NCBI RefSeq assembly: GCF_041431415.1 | Contig: NZ_CP107845.1 | Span: 8,254,249-8,318,248, forward strand | Direction: 5' to 3' | From: Streptomyces sp. NBC_00513 | Lineage (GTDB): Bacteria > Actinomycetota > Actinomycetes > Streptomycetales > Streptomycetaceae | DNA: 64,000 nt | Shown here: positions 16,457-26,667 of the stretch, piece by piece | Numbering within the stretch: the first letter of the stretch is position 1 | Layout of the letters: the number at the start of each line of letters is the position of its first letter | The notes under the pieces: model-generated | Told to the model about the DNA's origin: nothing | Databases searched by the model: none | What the model saw: only the letters and a program-made list of their open reading frames with translations | Translations under genes and position numbers: made by a program

Positions 16457-18424
16457 TCATGCCGGAGGGACCAGCATCTGTTCGGTGCCGAGGCTGTTGG
16501 TGCGGGTGTCGCGGTACATGGTGGTTTCGCCGTCACTCCAGCGGATGACGAGGTCGTTGGTGAGGCTGTCGCCGGTGTAGTTGCCGGTGGTCATGACGAC
16601 GCTGTGGGTCCAGGTCTTGTTGGGGCCGTGGACCGGTTGCTCGGAGCCGAGGCCGGCGGTGGTGGTGCCTACGTAGTTGTTGAGTGCGCCGCTTGTCCAG
16701 CGGACCATGAGGTCCCATTTCTGGTTGCCGGAGTACTGTCCGGCGGTCAGCAGGGTGGCGTCCTTCCACGCGCTGTTGGGGTCCTTGAGTTTGTATTCCT
16801 GGCCGAGGGTGCCGGCGCCGACGTTGGTGAAGAGACTGAGTTCGCCGTCGGACCAGCGGACCATGAGGTCGGTGACGTAGGTGGTGGCGTTGAAGCGGCC
16901 TGCGGCGATCTGGGTGGCGTGGCTCCAGACGGATCCGGAGGGGGCCATTTCAGTGATGCTGCCGAGGCCGTTGGATCCGATGTCGGCGTGGAGGGTCATG
17001 CGGCCGTCGTTCCAGCGGACCATGAGGTCGAACTGGTTCGAGCCGGTGAAATCGCCTGCCGTGATGGTCGCGGCTTCTTTCCATGCCGCGTTGGGTGCCT
17101 GGAGCTGGCGTTCGGGGCGGAAGCCGCCGATGCCGTCGCCGGGGTAGAGGGTGGCTTCACCGTCGGTCCAGATGACGAGCATGTCGCTGTGTCCGGTGTT
17201 GCTGAAGTCTCCGGAGGCGATCTGCTTGGCGTGCTTCCAGGTTTCTCCGCTGCCCGGGAGTGCTGGGCCGTCGTTCGGGGGCTGGTAGGGGTTGGGGCGT
17301 TTCACGTTGTCCGGGCCGATGCCGTTGGCGGCGTCGTTGTAGAGGTCCTGGGCGTCCTTGCCGAAGAGGGGCGCGTACGAGACCCAGTCGACGTTGGCGT
17401 CGTTGCCTCCGCCGTTGTATCCGCCGAGGTTGCCGATGACCTGTCCGCTGCGGGTCTTGGCGTCGTAGCCCTTGATCCAGGGGCTGCCGGAGACGCCTCC
17501 GTAGTAGCCGCCGCACTCCATCTGCATCTGCCGGAACCGGTGGAGCCGTTTGGTGCGAACGGTGCAGGTGATGGCCCTGTGGGTCGGGTTGTCCTTGAAG
17601 CTGCTGGGGTAGCCGACCACGGTCACTGTGTGGTCGTATCCCGATGCCTGGGTGAAGGTCAGTCCGCCGGTGACGTTCTCCACCAGGCCCTTTGCGCTCG
17701 GGCCGGCTGTGGCGAAGGCGATGTCGAGGTCGGACGTGGGGCCCTTGGTGTAGTTCTCGTACCGCGGGTCCAGGTAGACGTCGGTGATGGGAAAGATGCC
17801 CGAGGGCTGCGAGCCCGCGTCCAGGCCGTGGCGGTACTGCGGTACGAAGATGCGCTGCGTAGCGTTCTTGAGGCCGGTCCCGCAGTGACCTGCGGTGAGC
17901 ACGAGGTTCTTTCCCTTGCTGCGTACGACGCTGCCGGTGCAGGAGGTGGCGGTGCCGTGGATGGGCTTGCCCTTGTAGAAGAACGTCCCGACCATGGGGA
18001 GTCCTTCGAAGTGGCTGGCGGTGGGGGTGTCTGCCGGTGGTGCGGCTGCGAGGCCTCGCGCCGCTTCGGAGGCTCTGCCGCGGTCGGCGTCGATCGGCTT
18101 TGCCCGGGCCATGCGCTCCGCGGTCCAGAACGCAAGCTCACCGGACAGGTCAGGACGGGAGGTCGCTGCCTGGTTGGTGGCGGAGCTGGGTGGGGGAGTG
18201 GCCGGCGGTGATTCCCGGGGACGGGGAGGAGTTGGGGTGGGGACGGGTGTTGACCGTTCGGGCCGACCGTGCGTCTTGGAGGGGAAGGGCGTGGGTGGGG
18301 CGGTCGGTGACGGTAAGGACTCAGCGGGTGTGGGACTGGGTCCGGCTGCGGCGGCCGGAGTCACGAACAGGGCAGCTGCGAGAGTGAGCGTGGTCGCAGT
18401 GATCCATCGGGTTCTTCTTCTCAA
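16457..18424 (-). CDS. Secreted trypsin-like serine protease with FG-GAP-like repeats
   Basis: 655 residues. A signal peptide (1-~26, LFVTPAAAA) is followed by a Pro/Ser/Thr-rich linker (28-90). The protease domain has H180 in LVLTAGHCG, D234 in SDLDIAF and S312 in GGVSGSPW, so the triad is complete. From ~390 on there are five tandem ~50-residue repeats of the form DLMVRWSDGELSLF, an FG-GAP/VCBS-like beta-propeller that may bind cell surface or polymer. The protein should be exported and active outside the cell. It is divergent from the membrane-anchored protein at 18544. A second, inactive-looking relative is at 51072-52592. Confidence 0.85.
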   Translation of the reverse strand: MRRRTRWITATTLTLAAALFVTPAAAAGPSPTPAESLPSPTAPPTPFPSKTHGRPERSTPVPTPTPPRPRESPPATPPPSSATNQAATSRPDLSGELAFWTAERMARAKPIDADRGRASEAARGLAAAPPADTPTASHFEGLPMVGTFFYKGKPIHGTATSCTGSVVRSKGKNLVLTAGHCGTGLKNATQRIFVPQYRHGLDAGSQPSGIFPITDVYLDPRYENYTKGPTSDLDIAFATAGPSAKGLVENVTGGLTFTQASGYDHTVTVVGYPSSFKDNPTHRAITCTVRTKRLHRFRQMQMECGGYYGGVSGSPWIKGYDAKTRSGQVIGNLGGYNGGGNDANVDWVSYAPLFGKDAQDLYNDAANGIGPDNVKRPNPYQPPNDGPALPGSGETWKHAKQIASGDFSNTGHSDMLVIWTDGEATLYPGDGIGGFRPERQLQAPNAAWKEAATITAGDFTGSNQFDLMVRWNDGRMTLHADIGSNGLGSITEMAPSGSVWSHATQIAAGRFNATTYVTDLMVRWSDGELSLFTNVGAGTLGQEYKLKDPNSAWKDATLLTAGQYSGNQKWDLMVRWTSGALNNYVGTTTAGLGSEQPVHGPNKTWTHSVVMTTGNYTGDSLTNDLVIRWSDGETTMYRDTRTNSLGTEQMLVPPA

Positions 18425-20876: not shown

Positions 20877-21350
20877 ATGAACCGCAATACTGTCCGTATA
20901 GCGACGGTTTCGGCCTTAGCCGCCCTCACCCTCGGCGCCGGCGCCAGCCTGGCACAGGCATCGGAGGCCCCCCAGGCGCGTCCGGCGGCCACCGTCCAGG
21001 CGACCCTGTCGGCGTCCGACGCCCGCGCCCTCCTCGCCAACCCGGCCGTCTCGGCCGAGCTGAAGGCCGAGGACGCGCAGACGTTGCGCGCGGTCGCCAA
21101 CGGCACCGCCACCGAGGTCCAGGCCCGCGCCGCCATCGGTGGAGCCGTCAAGGCTCTGTTCAACCTGCTGAAGAAGTACGGCGGGAAGATCCTGAGCGGC
21201 GCGTACAACGCCGCCAAGGCCGGATGGGGCAAGTTCCGTTCGTACATGGACGGCCTGCCCTGGTACCACCCGGTGCGTATCGCCTGGGTCGCGGCCGGCG
21301 CCGAGATTCAGTACCAGCTGTACACCTACATCCGCAGCCTGGTCGTGTAG
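20877..21350 (+). CDS. Secreted bacteriocin-like cationic peptide precursor
   Basis: 157 residues from ATG 20877, after a strong AAGGAGA. The signal peptide is MNRNTVRIATVSALAALTLG, with cleavage near AQA-SEA (~27). An acidic/neutral propeptide follows (LSASDARALLANPAVSAEL, ending EVQARAA ~82). The last ~75 residues are strongly cationic and amphipathic, rich in Lys, Gly, Ala, Trp and Tyr: GGAVKALFNLLKKYGGKI, AAKAGWGKF, YQLYTYIRSLVV. This layout is that of a secreted pore-forming bacteriocin or antimicrobial precursor. It is followed by a small membrane protein and an ABC ATPase/permease pair, the usual immunity/export set. I recognise no named family. Confidence 0.6.
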   Translation: MNRNTVRIATVSALAALTLGAGASLAQASEAPQARPAATVQATLSASDARALLANPAVSAELKAEDAQTLRAVANGTATEVQARAAIGGAVKALFNLLKKYGGKILSGAYNAAKAGWGKFRSYMDGLPWYHPVRIAWVAAGAEIQYQLYTYIRSLVV

Positions 21351-21358
21351 GGGAAGAG

Positions 21359-21384
21359 GTGGTGCCCCGGTACCGGGGCACCAC
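21359..21384 (+). terminator. Perfect 26-bp palindrome after the precursor gene
   Basis: GTGGTGCCCCGGTACCGGGGCACCAC equals its own reverse complement and starts 8 bases after the precursor stop. As RNA it forms a strong hairpin, probably a partial terminator that makes more precursor mRNA than downstream mRNA, or an mRNA-stability element. Confidence 0.75.
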
Positions 21385-21442
21385 CCGCCGCCGCGATAGG
21401 CCGGCGGCGTGTCGTCCAGCCCGGCTCGTTAGGAAGAATCTG

Positions 21443-21712
21443 ATGGCCAGTACCGAAGTGTCTCCTGATCTGCGACATCTGTGGGCTTCTCCCGCTTACT
21501 TCATTACGGGGGCCTTCATCGCGTTCAACATCTTCGGCAACCGGGGTGTGGGCTGGGCCCTGATGGCTGCGGGTCTCCTCGGACCGCTCGGCGCCCTCGT
21601 CTGGGGTGCCTTCCGACGCGAACGGCCCGACTCGTTCGGGATCATCCCGGTCGGGGCACTGGTGCTGTTCACGGTGCTCTTCGGCATCGCCGAAGGTTTC
21701 CCCTGGTCCTGA
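21443..21712 (+). CDS. Small polytopic membrane protein, possible immunity protein
   Basis: 89 residues after AGGAAG. Two to three hydrophobic helices are visible: YFITGAFIAFNIFG, GWALMAAGLLGPLGALVWG and IIPVGALVLFTVLFGIAEG. RRERPDS sits between the last two. Small size, position between a secreted cationic peptide and an ABC transporter, and co-orientation suggest a self-protection role. The family is not recognised, and a simple accessory membrane protein is also possible. Confidence 0.55.
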   Translation: MASTEVSPDLRHLWASPAYFITGAFIAFNIFGNRGVGWALMAAGLLGPLGALVWGAFRRERPDSFGIIPVGALVLFTVLFGIAEGFPWS

Positions 21713-21748
21713 CCCGTGGTCAGGATCCCTGCACGTTAGGAACACACT

Positions 21749-22662
21749 GTGCCGCAAAGCGGTGTACTGGCCGAAGCTCAGGGCCTGCGGCGCTCGTTCG
21801 GCAGCAGAACGGTTCTCGATGACGTGTCTCTGACGCTGCACGCGGGCGAGGTGACCGGGTTCGTGGGCGCCAATGGCGCCGGCAAGACCACCACGATCCG
21901 GCTGATGCTGGGCCTCGCCCATGGCGAGGGCAGGGCACTCTTCCTTGGTCGTCCGCTGCACGCCTGGGGATCCCCCGGAAAGGTCGTGGGCGCGGTCCTC
22001 GGCGGAATTGCGGGCCACCCGAAGCATCGGGTCCGGTCGCATTTGCGGATGGTGGCCGCCGGGTGCGGCGCGTCCGACCAACGTGTCGACGAAATGCTGG
22101 AACGGGTGGGGCTCACCCAGGCCGCCCGGCTGAAACTCTCCCAGCTTTCTCTGGGAATGGCACAGCGCGTGGGAATCGCGCAGGCATTGCTCGGCGATCC
22201 GCCGGTGCTCATCCTCGACGAGCCCGCGAACGGCCTTGACCCGCACGCGATCCGCTGGCTGCGCGAGTTCCTTCGGGCCCAGGCAGCGGAGGGCAGGGCC
22301 ATCATGGTGTCCAGCCATCTGCTGGGCGAGATGGAGCAGCTCGCGGACCGTGTGGCGGTGCTGTCGCATGGCCGCGTCGTGGCCGCCTCGCCGATCGCGG
22401 ACCTGCTGTCCCGGGCCGGCGACCAGGCCGTGGTGACCGTACAGCACCGGACCTGCCACAGCTCGCACGCCTGGTGAAGGAGAGAGGCGGTCGGTTGGAA
22501 CCGACCGGCGGGCCGAGCGCGCACATCACCGGCCTGGACCGGATCCAAGTCGCCATCCTGGCGGCGGAGGGCGGCGTGCCCCTGCACTGGCTGTCCCAGG
22601 AGATGCCCTCGCTGGAGGACTTCTACCTGTCCATCGCGGAAGAGGAGTTCAAGATCTCGTGA
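21749..22662 (+). CDS. ABC transporter ATP-binding protein with late frameshift
   Basis: From GTG 21749, residues 1-~230 form a complete nucleotide-binding domain: Walker A GANGAGKTTT, signature LSLGMAQR, Walker B LILDEPANGLDP and H-loop SSHLL. The frame ends at 22477 after VVTVQHRTCHSSHAW. One frame over, from ~22448, the expected tail resumes (PDLPQLARLVKERGGRLEP, then EMPSLEDFYLSIAEEEFKIS) to TGA 22660-22662, which overlaps the permease GTG (GTGA). A one-base change, or a -1 shift, separates the tail. All ATPase motifs lie upstream of it, so a shortened protein could still work. It resembles the CcmA/bacitracin-type exporter subunits. Confidence 0.75.
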
Positions 22663-23567
22663 CCGCGCCCCCGACACATATTCCGCCGACCGCCGACGTG
22701 CCCATGCCCCCGCCTTCTGGCACCCCGCGGATGACCCCGACCGACGAGGCGTTTCGCAACGCATGCCGGTATGAGTGGCGACACCTCACGGGCCTGCGCT
22801 CCACGTGGGTACTCCTCGGCGTAGTGGCAACCCTGAGCCTCCTGACCGGGCCCGGGCTCCTGTTCGACCTGGACAAGACGAGAACGATCAGCGCCGCGTC
22901 GATGGGCGACGTGCTGGCATGGGCGCCGATGGCGACTCAGCTCCCCCTGCTGTGCTTCTTCGTCCTGGTCCTCGGTACGGGCCCGGTCTCCACCGACCTG
23001 GTGCGCGGCGCGGCGCGCACGACGTGGCTGGCGGTCAACGGACGCCGGATAGCGTACGCGGCCAAGGGCACGGTCGGATTCCTGGTGGGCGCCGCAGTGG
23101 CGGCGGCCAGCGCGCTGGTGGGCGCGGTCTCGGCGGCTCTCGTCCTGGCCGTCTCTGGAGCACCGCAGCCGGCGTGGGGCGCGGTGCTGGTGCCTGTGCT
23201 GCGGTTTGTACTGTGGATGGGCTGCTGGGCACTGCTGTGCATGGCCCTGGTGGCACTGATGCGGAACAGGATCGTGCCGGTGCTGGTGCTCTGTATGTGG
23301 CCGTTGCTGGGCGAGCGGCTGGCGGGCCTGCTGCTGGGGTACGTCCCCGGACTGGATGGTGTGGCCGACTGGCTGCCCTTCGCGGCCGGCCGGGCGATGC
23401 TCACCGACGTTTCGGCGCTCGCAGGAGAGGACCGATCGTTCGCAGCAGGCATGGTGGGGTCGGACCTCTCGACCCCAGTGGCCCTGGTGGTCTTCCTGCT
23501 CTATACGGCGGCATTGACAGCGGCGGGCTACTGGGCGTACAGCCGCCGAGAGGCCACAACCGGCTGA
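22659..23567 (+). CDS. ABC transporter permease
   Basis: 302 residues from GTG 22659, translationally coupled to the ATPase by a 4-base overlap. About six hydrophobic segments: STWVLLGVVATLSLLTG, LPLLCFFVLVLGTG, GTVGFLVGAAVAAASALVGA, FVLWMGCWALLCMALVALM, VPVLVLCMWPLLGERLAG and VALVVFLLYTAALTAAGYW. VSTDLVRGAARTTWLAVNG matches the ABC-2 type pattern where target-gene edges face the cytoplasm. With the ATPase it should export or remove the cationic peptide, giving secretion or immunity. It is the last gene of the cassette. Confidence 0.8.
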   Translation: MTAPPTHIPPTADVPMPPPSGTPRMTPTDEAFRNACRYEWRHLTGLRSTWVLLGVVATLSLLTGPGLLFDLDKTRTISAASMGDVLAWAPMATQLPLLCFFVLVLGTGPVSTDLVRGAARTTWLAVNGRRIAYAAKGTVGFLVGAAVAAASALVGAVSAALVLAVSGAPQPAWGAVLVPVLRFVLWMGCWALLCMALVALMRNRIVPVLVLCMWPLLGERLAGLLLGYVPGLDGVADWLPFAAGRAMLTDVSALAGEDRSFAAGMVGSDLSTPVALVVFLLYTAALTAAGYWAYSRREATTG

Positions 23568-23700: not shown

Positions 23701-24505
23701 CTATGCGGCTTGGGTCAGGGTAGTTGCAGCTGGCTGGAGGTCGTTCTCGTAGGCGATCGGGGACCGGTGGCCGAGGCGGGAGTGCCGGCGGCGGGTGTTG
23801 TATCGGGTCAGCCAGCGGAACGCGTCGAGCCTGGCCTCGCGCTCGCTCGACCAGGCTTTGCGGCCTTTGAGCGTCTCCCTCTTGAAGGCGGCGTTGAAGC
23901 TTTCTGCGGCTGCGTTGTCGGCGCTGGATCCGATCGCGCCCATGCTCTGCCGGACCCCGGCTGACCTGCAGATTTCAGCGAAGGCCCTGCTCGAATATTG
24001 GGATCCGTGGTCCGTGTGCATGATCGCTCCGGCCAGGTTTCCACGGGTCCGCTCGGCTGCCGCCAGGGCGTCGATGACGAGCTCGGTTCGCATGTGATCG
24101 GCGATCGCCCACCCGGCCAGCCGGCGCGAGCACAAGTCGATGACGGTCGCGAGGTAGAGCGGCTTCGCGCCGCTGACCGGCAGGTATGTGATGTCGCCTA
24201 CGTACTTTCTGTTCACCTCGGCCGCGGTGAAGTCACGGCCGATCAGGTCCGGCGCCTTCGACGCGGCCTGGTCCGCGACGGTGGTGCGGTGCCGGCGACG
24301 CAACCGGACTCCCTCGAGCCCTATGGTCCGCATGATCCTGGCGACCCGCTTGTGGTTGACCACCGGACCCTCCTCGTCGCGGAGTTCCGCGGTGATTCTG
24401 GGGGCTCCGTAGGGAGAAGCTCGAACGGGCCAGGCCGAGGATGTCGCAGAGCCGCTTCACGCCGTGACGGCGCTGGTGATCGTCAACGAACTGGTAGCGG
24501 TTCAC
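23701..24505 (-). pseudogene. IS3-family OrfB with internal deletion
   Basis: It starts MNRYQFVDDHQRRHGVKRLC DI..LARSSF. Then ~30 residues normally present are missing, and the frame shifts to YGAPRITAELRDEEGP and VVNHKRVARIMRTIGL. The integrase core is intact afterwards: first D in YVGDITYLPV, second D in MHTDHGSQYSS and E in ADNAAAESFNAAFKRE. The deletion removes the N-terminal linker, so OrfAB fusion is impossible. Confidence 0.75.
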
Positions 24506-24879: not shown

Positions 24880-26667
24880 CCCAATGCCGGGTAGTTAGCA
24901 CATTTCCGCTGGTGGCAAGGGGTGTAGGCGTCGAGTCGGAACACGGCCAGCGGAGTCTCGTTGGTCAGGTAGTCCGGCAAGACTGCTGATCATCGAGGTG
25001 TTCCGTTGCCCGCACGCTATTGTCCTCTTTCGCCCGGCCTGACGACCATCTCGCGTGAGTTCACCGTGGCCTCGGGCCGGTTCGCCCCCGGTCATCTGGG
25101 CGGGCTGACCCAGATCGTGCCGTTCGACCTCGTCGATGCTCTCCTGGACGAAACCCGTTGCGTTCAGCGGCGGTTACGGGTTCTTCCTTCTCGGGTCGGG
25201 GTCTACTTCCTGCTCGCGATGTGTATGTTTCCCGAGGTCGGCTACCGGCTGGTCTGGAGCAAGCTGATCGCAGCTCTGACGAGCGGCGGGCTCGAGGTCG
25301 CTGATCCGACCGCGAAAGCCCTGCGCGACCTGCGTCGCCGTATCGGCACCGAACCGATGCGCCGCCTGTTCGATGTCCTGGCCGGACCACTCGCCCGACC
25401 GACGACTCCCGGGGTACGTTTCGGACCATTTCGGATGGTCTCCTTCGACGGCTGCAGCTCCATCAAGATTCCTGACACCGACCGCAACGTGGAGTGGTTC
25501 GGTCCCGGCAACCGCGGCGGACATCCAATGCTCGAGCTGATGACCCTGGCGGAGACCGGAACCCGGGCCCTGATCGGCGCGGTGTTCGGACCAACCAGCG
25601 ACGGCGAGACCGCCTACGCCCGAAGGCTCCTGCACCACCTGGGCCCGGACATGCTGGTCATGTGGGACAAAGGATTCGACGCCAACGCCTTCCTCGCCTC
25701 CGTGAACGACACCGGAGCCAAGTTCCTGGGCCGGCTGCGAGCCAACCGCCGCACCCCGGTCCTCGCTCCACTCGCGGACGGCTCCTACCTCTCCGTCATC
25801 GGCGCCGTCCCCGTGCGCGTCATCGAAGCACAGATCACTGTGACCTGCGGCGACAGCTCGTTCACCGGCTCTTACCGGCTGGTCACAACGCTGACCGACG
25901 CCCGCCGCTACCCTGCCACGATCCTCGTCACTCTCTATCACCAGAGGTGGGAACACGAGTCGGCGTACTACGCCCTTCGCCACACGATCACGGACGGCCG
26001 GGTCCTGCGCTCCGGTGATCCTGTCGGAGTCGAGCAGGAGATGTGGGCCCTACTCACCCTCTACCAGGCACTTCGAACCGTGATGGTCGAGGCCGCCGAG
26101 TCCCGGCCGGGCACCGACCCGGACCGCTGCGGCTTCACCATAGCCATCCAGACTGCCCGTGACCTCGTCGTCCAGGCGGCCGAGATCGTTTCCCCAATCG
26201 CCGGCACGGCTGGCGTCATTGCCAACCGTGTCCTTGCAGGACTCCTCCCGCACCGGCGCCCCAGCATCAGCACCCGAAAAGTCAGGTCGTCGATCTCCCG
26301 GTACGCCGAACGCCAGGACGACGGCCGGCCAGACACCAGCCTCCCGGTCACCGGCCTCGACGTCACCATCCTCGAACCCGAACCCGACCTGCCCACCGTC
26401 TCCCACGACGACCGGCACATCCCGCCCACCGACCGACGCCGACAGCGCGTCCTGGACCTCCTTGACGCCGACCCCGACCGCCACTGGCACACCCGCGAAC
26501 TCGCCCGACACCTCGGCGACATCACCCTCAGCACCATGTATCGCCAACTCGACAGATGGGCCGCACACGGACTCATCGACAAGACCGGACCAGCCATCTA
26601 CAGCAGCCCACGAAGCCACCCAACACCACTGCCACCAGCGGAAATGCGCTAACTACCCGGCATTGGG
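24880..26667. mobile_element. IS4-family element, intact, nested in the IS3 terminal repeat
   Basis: Terminal inverted repeats run CCCAATGCCGGGTAGTTAGC (24880) inward through CATTTCCGCTGGTGGCA. The right end is the reverse complement with one difference in ~34 bases. TCAAGG flanks both sides (24874-24879 and 26668-26673), a probable 6-bp target duplication taken from the IS3 end. Confidence 0.85.
25006..26652 (+). CDS. IS4-family transposase, 548 aa
   Basis: An N-terminal IS4 domain (IVPFDLVDALLDETRCVQRR, LPSRVGVYFLLAMCMFPEVG) precedes a DDE_Tnp_1 core. That core has the first D in MVSFDGCSSIKIPD, the second D in DMLVMWDKGFDANAF and the E in the Y2-type motif YHQRWEHESAYYALRHTI. The C-terminal ~100 residues contain a helix-turn-helix (ARHLGDITLSTMYRQLDRWA). 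It is a full-length open frame inside matching terminal repeats, so probably active. Confidence 0.92.
   Translation: MPARYCPLSPGLTTISREFTVASGRFAPGHLGGLTQIVPFDLVDALLDETRCVQRRLRVLPSRVGVYFLLAMCMFPEVGYRLVWSKLIAALTSGGLEVADPTAKALRDLRRRIGTEPMRRLFDVLAGPLARPTTPGVRFGPFRMVSFDGCSSIKIPDTDRNVEWFGPGNRGGHPMLELMTLAETGTRALIGAVFGPTSDGETAYARRLLHHLGPDMLVMWDKGFDANAFLASVNDTGAKFLGRLRANRRTPVLAPLADGSYLSVIGAVPVRVIEAQITVTCGDSSFTGSYRLVTTLTDARRYPATILVTLYHQRWEHESAYYALRHTITDGRVLRSGDPVGVEQEMWALLTLYQALRTVMVEAAESRPGTDPDRCGFTIAIQTARDLVVQAAEIVSPIAGTAGVIANRVLAGLLPHRRPSISTRKVRSSISRYAERQDDGRPDTSLPVTGLDVTILEPEPDLPTVSHDDRHIPPTDRRRQRVLDLLDADPDRHWHTRELARHLGDITLSTMYRQLDRWAAHGLIDKTGPAIYSSPRSHPTPLPPAEMR

Follow-up and report, generated by a model that had tools for sequence, protein, structure and literature searches.

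The 64,000-nucleotide stretch of Streptomyces sp. NBC_00513 analysed in this work (contig NZ_CP107845.1, positions 8,254,249 to 8,318,248 of the forward strand; hereafter the window) represents the terminal 64 kb of a linear-looking chromosome contig of 8.318 Mb and harbors, at window positions 20877-23567, what is most likely, judging from sequence comparison, a bacteriocin cassette of an undescribed Streptomycetaceae family. The core unit of the cassette is a pair of genes coding for a secreted precursor peptide of 157 amino acids (aa; 20877-21350, + strand) and a small polytopic membrane protein of 89 aa (21443-21712, +), followed by genes for an ATP-binding cassette (ABC) transporter, which is an optional accessory. 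The precursor probably gives rise to a helical, membrane-active bacteriocin that is secreted by Sec and matured by proteolysis, with the membrane protein being its putative cognate immunity protein and the transporter providing optional self-protection. A previous sequence-only reading had proposed a new Streptomyces bacteriocin or signalling peptide system of four co-directional genes, and all four were indeed found where it had placed them, on the + strand. Its bacteriocin interpretation is well supported by both the anatomy of the precursor and comparative genomics, whereas the transporter as a part of the core and an intact ATPase had to be given up.

The precursor consists of a Sec-type signal peptide (approximately residues 1-28, with the signal and its cleavage site, AQA before SE, assigned by eye), a helical pro-region (~29-87) and a cationic helical C-terminal domain (~88-157), the boundary at residue 88 having been chosen after the alignment described below was seen. 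The C-terminal 78 residues have a net charge of +7 and include 6 Lys, 3 Trp and no Cys, and the top 11-residue helical moment in this part, 0.66, falls on AVKALFNLLKK, both values agreeing with the proposed signal-peptide precursor with a cationic amphipathic C-terminus. In the AlphaFold2 model of the full-length protein, the predicted local distance difference test (pLDDT) values of the C-terminal domain are 85-95 per ten-residue block. The structure prediction that had been recommended for the C-terminus was run on residues 80-157 alone and gave an all-helical model with a mean pLDDT of 89.1 and a predicted template modelling score of 0.77, the helices being located at residues 81-100, 104-115, 117-125, 132-139 and 142-156 of the precursor.

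Neither Pfam nor NCBIfam scans gave any family match for the precursor, just as the sequence-only reading had supposed, while a search of 5.8 billion proteins returned 26 homologous protein clusters with the best E value of 2e-88, and all the clusters with a named organism are from Streptomyces or Kitasatospora. In an alignment of 29 precursors, picked by hand as representatives of the family branches, all have a Sec-like signal with the consensus MNRNTLRMAAV.., followed by a pro-region and by a C-terminal domain that varies around F..W..GL.W. Conservation in the 26 clusters and in this alignment led us to reject the possibility that the precursor gene is a chance open reading frame (ORF). The C-terminal domain, 60-75 residues long, is net positive in all 29 members (mean +6.7, range +3 to +15), contains no Cys in any of them and has from 1 to 5 Trp residues (mean 3.5); the mean charge of the pro-region is -1.9 (range -16 to +3). 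According to the alignment, the domain is preceded by a small-residue or Gly-Gly junction, namely IGG before AVK in the window and AGG or AAG before K in other members.

No Pfam or NCBIfam family covers the 89-aa membrane protein, and a search for its relatives yielded 19 proteins including the window's own, all from Streptomyces wherever named. A relative adjoins the precursor gene in all eight close-relative loci (L008-L012, L015, L048, L049). With a more general rule, namely an ORF of 55-140 aa on the same strand with at least two hydrophobic segments and beginning no more than 700 bp from the end of the precursor gene, such a small membrane ORF is found 3′ of the precursor in 37 of the 43 loci outside the window (31/36 plus 6/7 re-oriented loci), which are related to each other and are not an independent sample, compared with 5 of 106 long genes of the same stretches, a control set not purged of cassette genes. 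The 43 loci include side-branch precursors (L043, L044, L047 and L041, L090, L094, L095) and count duplicates once (L017 and L045 of L091, L025 of L052, L042 of L089), leaving out unfetched matches to the signal or pro-region only (e.g., G036, G126, G275, G287) and the partial hits L018 and L019. The linkage of a secreted peptide gene to a small membrane protein gene, which is a general feature of bacteriocin systems, is thus present here.

The divergence of the membrane protein in 27 pairs correlates with that of all three parts of the precursor, the coefficients being 0.89 for the C-terminal domain, 0.78 for the pro-region and 0.63 for the signal, and none of 2000 permutations reaches any of the three values; the C-terminal domain ranks highest, as a match between a peptide and its immunity protein would predict. 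Eleven of 353 genomes contain matches to the membrane-protein profile, six of them together with the precursor (G000, G027, G282, G325, G338, G341) and five without a precursor match (G099, G156, G290, G335, G343), the latter being taken as covered by both precursor surveys described below, as judged from the genome handles. Two of these five matches are strong (G343, E 5e-44; G156, E 4e-34), and no precursor-like ORF was found in about 1.5 kb upstream of the membrane gene in either genome. The G335 locus (L125) is a decayed one, in which the membrane ORF is intact but is flanked by what, by eye, resembles a degenerate pro-region on one side and by an ATPase relic of 38 residues on the other. 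In bacteriocin systems, immunity genes are often retained without the peptide gene.

The gap between the two core genes contains a perfect 13-bp stem-loop (21358-21385, +). The predicted RNA fold of the region 21345-21442 has a z score of -2.59, with 3 of 200 shuffled sequences folding equally well. Stems with a score of at least 10, one mismatch allowed, within 70 nt 3′ of the precursor stop are found in 21 of 30 loci, the window included, and after 10 of 92 control genes (Fisher P 1e-9, calculated on loci that are not independent), and the stem sequences vary from subfamily to subfamily.

The third gene (21749-22477, +; 242-aa ORF) does code for an ABC ATPase, as had been claimed, and its product gives a full-length match to Pfam ABC_tran (residues 23-161, profile positions 1-137 of 137, E 3e-28), so the nucleotide-binding domain is complete despite a frame break near the 3′ end which leaves the expected intact frame unsupported. 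Relatives end differently from this ORF: the counterpart of their final 62 residues is found here in another frame, starting at 22474 (22474-22662, +), and shows 82% identity to the in-frame C-terminus of the L048 relative. The break corresponds to a one-base offset, with the two ATPase pieces being 725 nt apart in the window versus 726 nt in L048; the spacing, derived from match coordinates, is a multiple of three in all eight loci holding both pieces (L048, L054, L056, L058, L059, L061, L062, L067). A programmed frameshift was considered and rejected because the frame is kept in all eight of these relatives. The break may originate from a sequencing error. The locus is present in a second copy about 43 kb from the opposite end of the contig (L006), so the cassette appears to be placed in a terminal inverted repeat, and all 3471 of the 3471 bases fetched are identical between the copies, the ATPase break included. 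Since the frame is broken, the transporter is probably impaired in this strain. The fourth gene (22659-23567, +), whose start overlaps the stop of the ATPase continuation, encodes an ABC-2-type permease of 302 aa with a match to ABC2_membrane_2 (E 7e-5) of 22.7 bits, below the cut-off of 27.2.

It is worth considering that the cassette is decaying in this strain and is no longer functional as a whole, which would be compatible with the bacteriocin reading at the family level. The ATPase is broken in both end copies, transposase ORFs lie directly downstream, namely an integrase-core one (23704-24363, -) and an IS4-type one (25006-26652, +), and what remains of a related, truncated precursor is found elsewhere in this genome. 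Decay of the whole is nonetheless rather unlikely, as the precursor, membrane protein and permease genes are open and conserved and many relatives manage without any ABC pair. The relic itself (G000:C1:8003424-8003567; L007, L019) comprises the pro-region and the start of the C-terminal domain and adjoins apparent insertion-sequence remnants recognized by eye.

A total of 93 permease relatives were found among 7997 candidates scored. At E values up to 1e-20, the permease profile matches 11 of 392 Streptomyces genomes (G000, G107, G182, G250, G309, G328, G333, G338, G341, G367, G387), all of which have a precursor no farther than ~3 kb from it on that contig, with the two sharing a strand in 10 of them. 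The probability of drawing 11 precursor genomes by chance from 58 in 392 is 3e-10, with physical closeness not counted in, with the own genome among the 11 and with several rows of both profiles coming from these genomes or their relatives; what is independent in this linkage is the absence of the permease from all other genomes. The reverse does not hold: of the 24 genomes that match the precursor strongly, 14 lack a permease match, and an ABC pair was found in 8 of the 32 loci compared. The transporter is therefore accessory and the precursor-membrane protein pair the core. Six close-relative loci (L008, L009, L011, L012, L015, L049) show no ABC match in at least ~5 kb downstream. Co-occurrence of the four genes, which had been suggested as a check, is borne out for the precursor and the membrane protein only. 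Precursors lacking the transporter, which had been named in advance as evidence against the system, do exist and tell against the ABC transporter as a part of it, but not against the membrane protein. One permease-bearing locus contains two tandem precursor matches about 1 kb apart (G387:C2:5583444-5584915, L056) and might be a two-peptide system whose transporter is decaying.

The same ABC pair could serve to export the peptide rather than to protect its producer. Many bacteriocin genes are known to adjoin ABC pairs, and not a single permease match at the above threshold occurs without the precursor in the 392 genomes. This alternative is improbable, given that the precursor has its own Sec-type signal, that the 14 genomes mentioned above do without a permease match, and that the ATPase resembles lantibiotic-protection ATPases, though 195 other models match it too. 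The best of its NCBIfam matches is TIGR03740, a lantibiotic-protection ATPase model (E 6e-46), with 156.8 bits, under the cut-off of 309.75, for the broken 242-aa ORF scored; such transporters are those of the LanFEG type.

The precursor was found in 5 of 61 near relatives, the own genome counted, and in 39 or 58 of the 392 Streptomyces genomes with the first and the wider profile, respectively. Strong matches (E 4e-30 or better, covering almost the whole profile) are present in 24 genomes, and many of the remaining wider-profile matches span only the signal and pro part. The genome surveys scored few candidates per genome, so these counts are lower bounds. In a class-wide survey, the precursor profile matched 8 of 394 genomes, with no convincing precursor outside Streptomyces; spread beyond Streptomycetaceae was rejected, as the three non-Streptomyces matches cover 33-59 signal/pro profile positions with E values above 1e-4. 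Three plasmid records contain precursor relatives, two from S. rimosus and one from S. globosus, the latter having a tblastn E value of 0.4 and yet aligning well with the family. Several members are located less than ~125 kb from the ends of long contigs (the window, G019:C1:14191, G117:C1:68080, G309:C1:8200494, G182:C1:7044178) and others are plasmid-borne, hinting that the family is enriched in mobile or subtelomeric DNA. The patchy distribution together with the plasmid copies was counted in favor of the bacteriocin reading.

The occurrence of the precursor in 58 genomes would also suit a secreted pheromone, sensed or imported by the small membrane protein or the ABC transporter, and a secreted, processed peptide next to a membrane protein and an ABC transporter is the layout that such signalling would have. 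A signalling role is quite unlikely all the same, and less likely than a bacteriocin, as the 60-75-residue domain, cationic in all 29 members, is unlike short signals, the 89-aa membrane protein could not accommodate a soluble signalling domain, and some genomes have the membrane gene but no precursor match; no regulator was noticed beside the window genes when the ORF list was examined by eye, with no domain scan. The precursor could also be a developmental or surface-active protein, functionally comparable to SapB or chaplins as a surfactant or a component of the coat, since it is secreted, amphipathic and restricted to Streptomycetaceae in the searches made. This is very unlikely in view of its very patchy occurrence among near relatives, its copies on plasmids and its tightly linked, diversifying membrane partner.

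Returning to the bacteriocin reading, the closest physical parallels to the C-terminal domain are aureocin A53 and lacticin Q, leaderless bacteriocins with a saposin-like fold, which are likewise cationic, cysteine-free, Trp-bearing helical peptides, with a length of 51-53 residues against 60-75 here. The aureocin-like Pfam model (PF11758), if present in the Pfam copy scanned, is not among the 20 families listed for the 29 members at E values up to 10. According to PMC6072434 and PMC11580447, aureocin-like peptides are usually encoded with membrane-associated proteins, as here, and the latter source reports that they exist in Actinomycetota including Streptomyces. They are leaderless, in contrast to the signal and pro-region present in all 29 aligned precursors. 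Circular bacteriocins of the AS-48 or circularin type, as described in PMC6072434, are again similar, being cationic peptides of about 70 residues that lack cysteine and contain four to five helices. Their loci encode a DUF95/SpoIIM protein, and none was found among the window cassette proteins (Pfam, E up to 1). Hence a likeness rather than a membership is claimed, given the leader and pro-region, the missing aureocin model match and a profile similarity at noise level: the C-terminal domain may work like saposin-like leaderless or circular bacteriocins, the resemblance being physical. Lantibiotics have a Cys-containing core, whereas Cys is absent from the C-terminal domain in all 29 members, and neither the window precursor nor the aligned members match the lactococcin 972 family in Pfam or NCBIfam. 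Class II bacteriocins of the propionicin/closticin 574 type are Sec-secreted, with a signal peptide and release of the C-terminal active part. The precursor would resemble them in both respects, and no Streptomyces relatives of this type were recognized in the open-access literature searched. Nor was the present family recognized there as described, with subscription papers and preprints outside the scope of the search.

Several observations weigh against the bacteriocin reading. No known bacteriocin family was found for the 29 members in the Pfam and NCBIfam scans, and searches of solved structures with Foldseek returned nothing below an E value of 2.5; neither the Foldseek nor the VIA-align lists for the C-terminal domain contain a bacteriocin or a confident match. 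The score of the family profile against three aureocin-like peptides is 15.9, with a maximum of 15.6 for 100 shuffles, or 19.4 with one member as master, at a probability of 4-16%. Six of the 29 members have a pro-region with a net positive charge, and a single member at -16 lowers the mean. No maturation protease is evident within the cassette. Six of the 43 loci have no clear membrane ORF by the rule applied (L051, L053, L056, L063, L093, L109), with a looser look giving a one-segment candidate in L051 and L053. The covariation of the two core proteins could result from plain co-inheritance or shared ancestry alone. As for the membrane genes without a precursor match, the G290 match is partial, and the one in G099 is weak and has a 27-residue resemblance to a precursor (E 0.006) about 0.5 kb upstream. 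Finally, the ABC pair of G387 is divergent, and its permease match contains an internal stop.

As read from the sequence, the precursor would be exported by Sec with removal of the signal peptide, after which the helical pro-region, usually near-neutral to acidic, would be cut off outside the cell, probably at the small-residue or Gly-Gly junction, releasing the cationic, cysteine-free, Trp-containing domain of 60-75 residues and four to five helices. The freed domain most likely inserts into and permeabilizes the membranes of competing, probably related, Gram-positive bacteria. The role of a cognate immunity protein is proposed for the 89-aa membrane protein on the grounds of its linkage, covariation and copies without the precursor, and the stem-loop probably keeps the peptide gene more strongly expressed than the immunity gene. 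In the manner of lantibiotic-protection transporters, the ABC pair probably clears the producer's membrane of the peptide; with the ATPase broken here, this strain would depend on the small membrane protein for its protection. A gene on the opposite strand (16457-18424, -), some 2.4 kb upstream of the precursor gene, codes for a 655-aa secreted-looking protein with a trypsin-like domain (E 7e-6) and FG-GAP repeats, which is conceivable as a candidate maturation protease.

Some side branches carry other C-terminal domains. In the branch represented by L043, L044 and L047, the style of the signal and pro-region is kept, and a dibasic TKR or AKR junction precedes a conserved ALGMGTIVRKLIVAGLRHGG domain, with a four-segment membrane ORF located after the precursor; no family match was found for the L043 precursor. 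At each of L041, L090, L094 and L095, a small membrane ORF comes after a secreted, cationic precursor that looks helical and whose C-terminal domain differs markedly. With slightly more confidence than doubt, we suggest that these loci belong to a genus-wide, fast-diversifying arsenal of Sec-secreted, proteolytically activated helical pore-formers used in kin warfare, each with its own immunity protein of ~90 residues behind a stem-loop and some with an ABC pump, in which related sub-branches would keep the style of signal and pro-region and bear different toxic C-terminal domains, one of them having a dibasic KR junction.

Streptomyces is the main source of small-molecule antibiotics, and few peptide bacteriocins have been described from its phylum; according to PMC11580447, no leaderless bacteriocin production had been characterized in Actinomycetota before that work. 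If the reading proposed here is true, the cassette would represent a two-gene, apparently unmodified, genetically encoded system which is easy to synthesize and assay, its family models could be used for genome mining, and peptide-based kin competition in Streptomyces would become directly testable.

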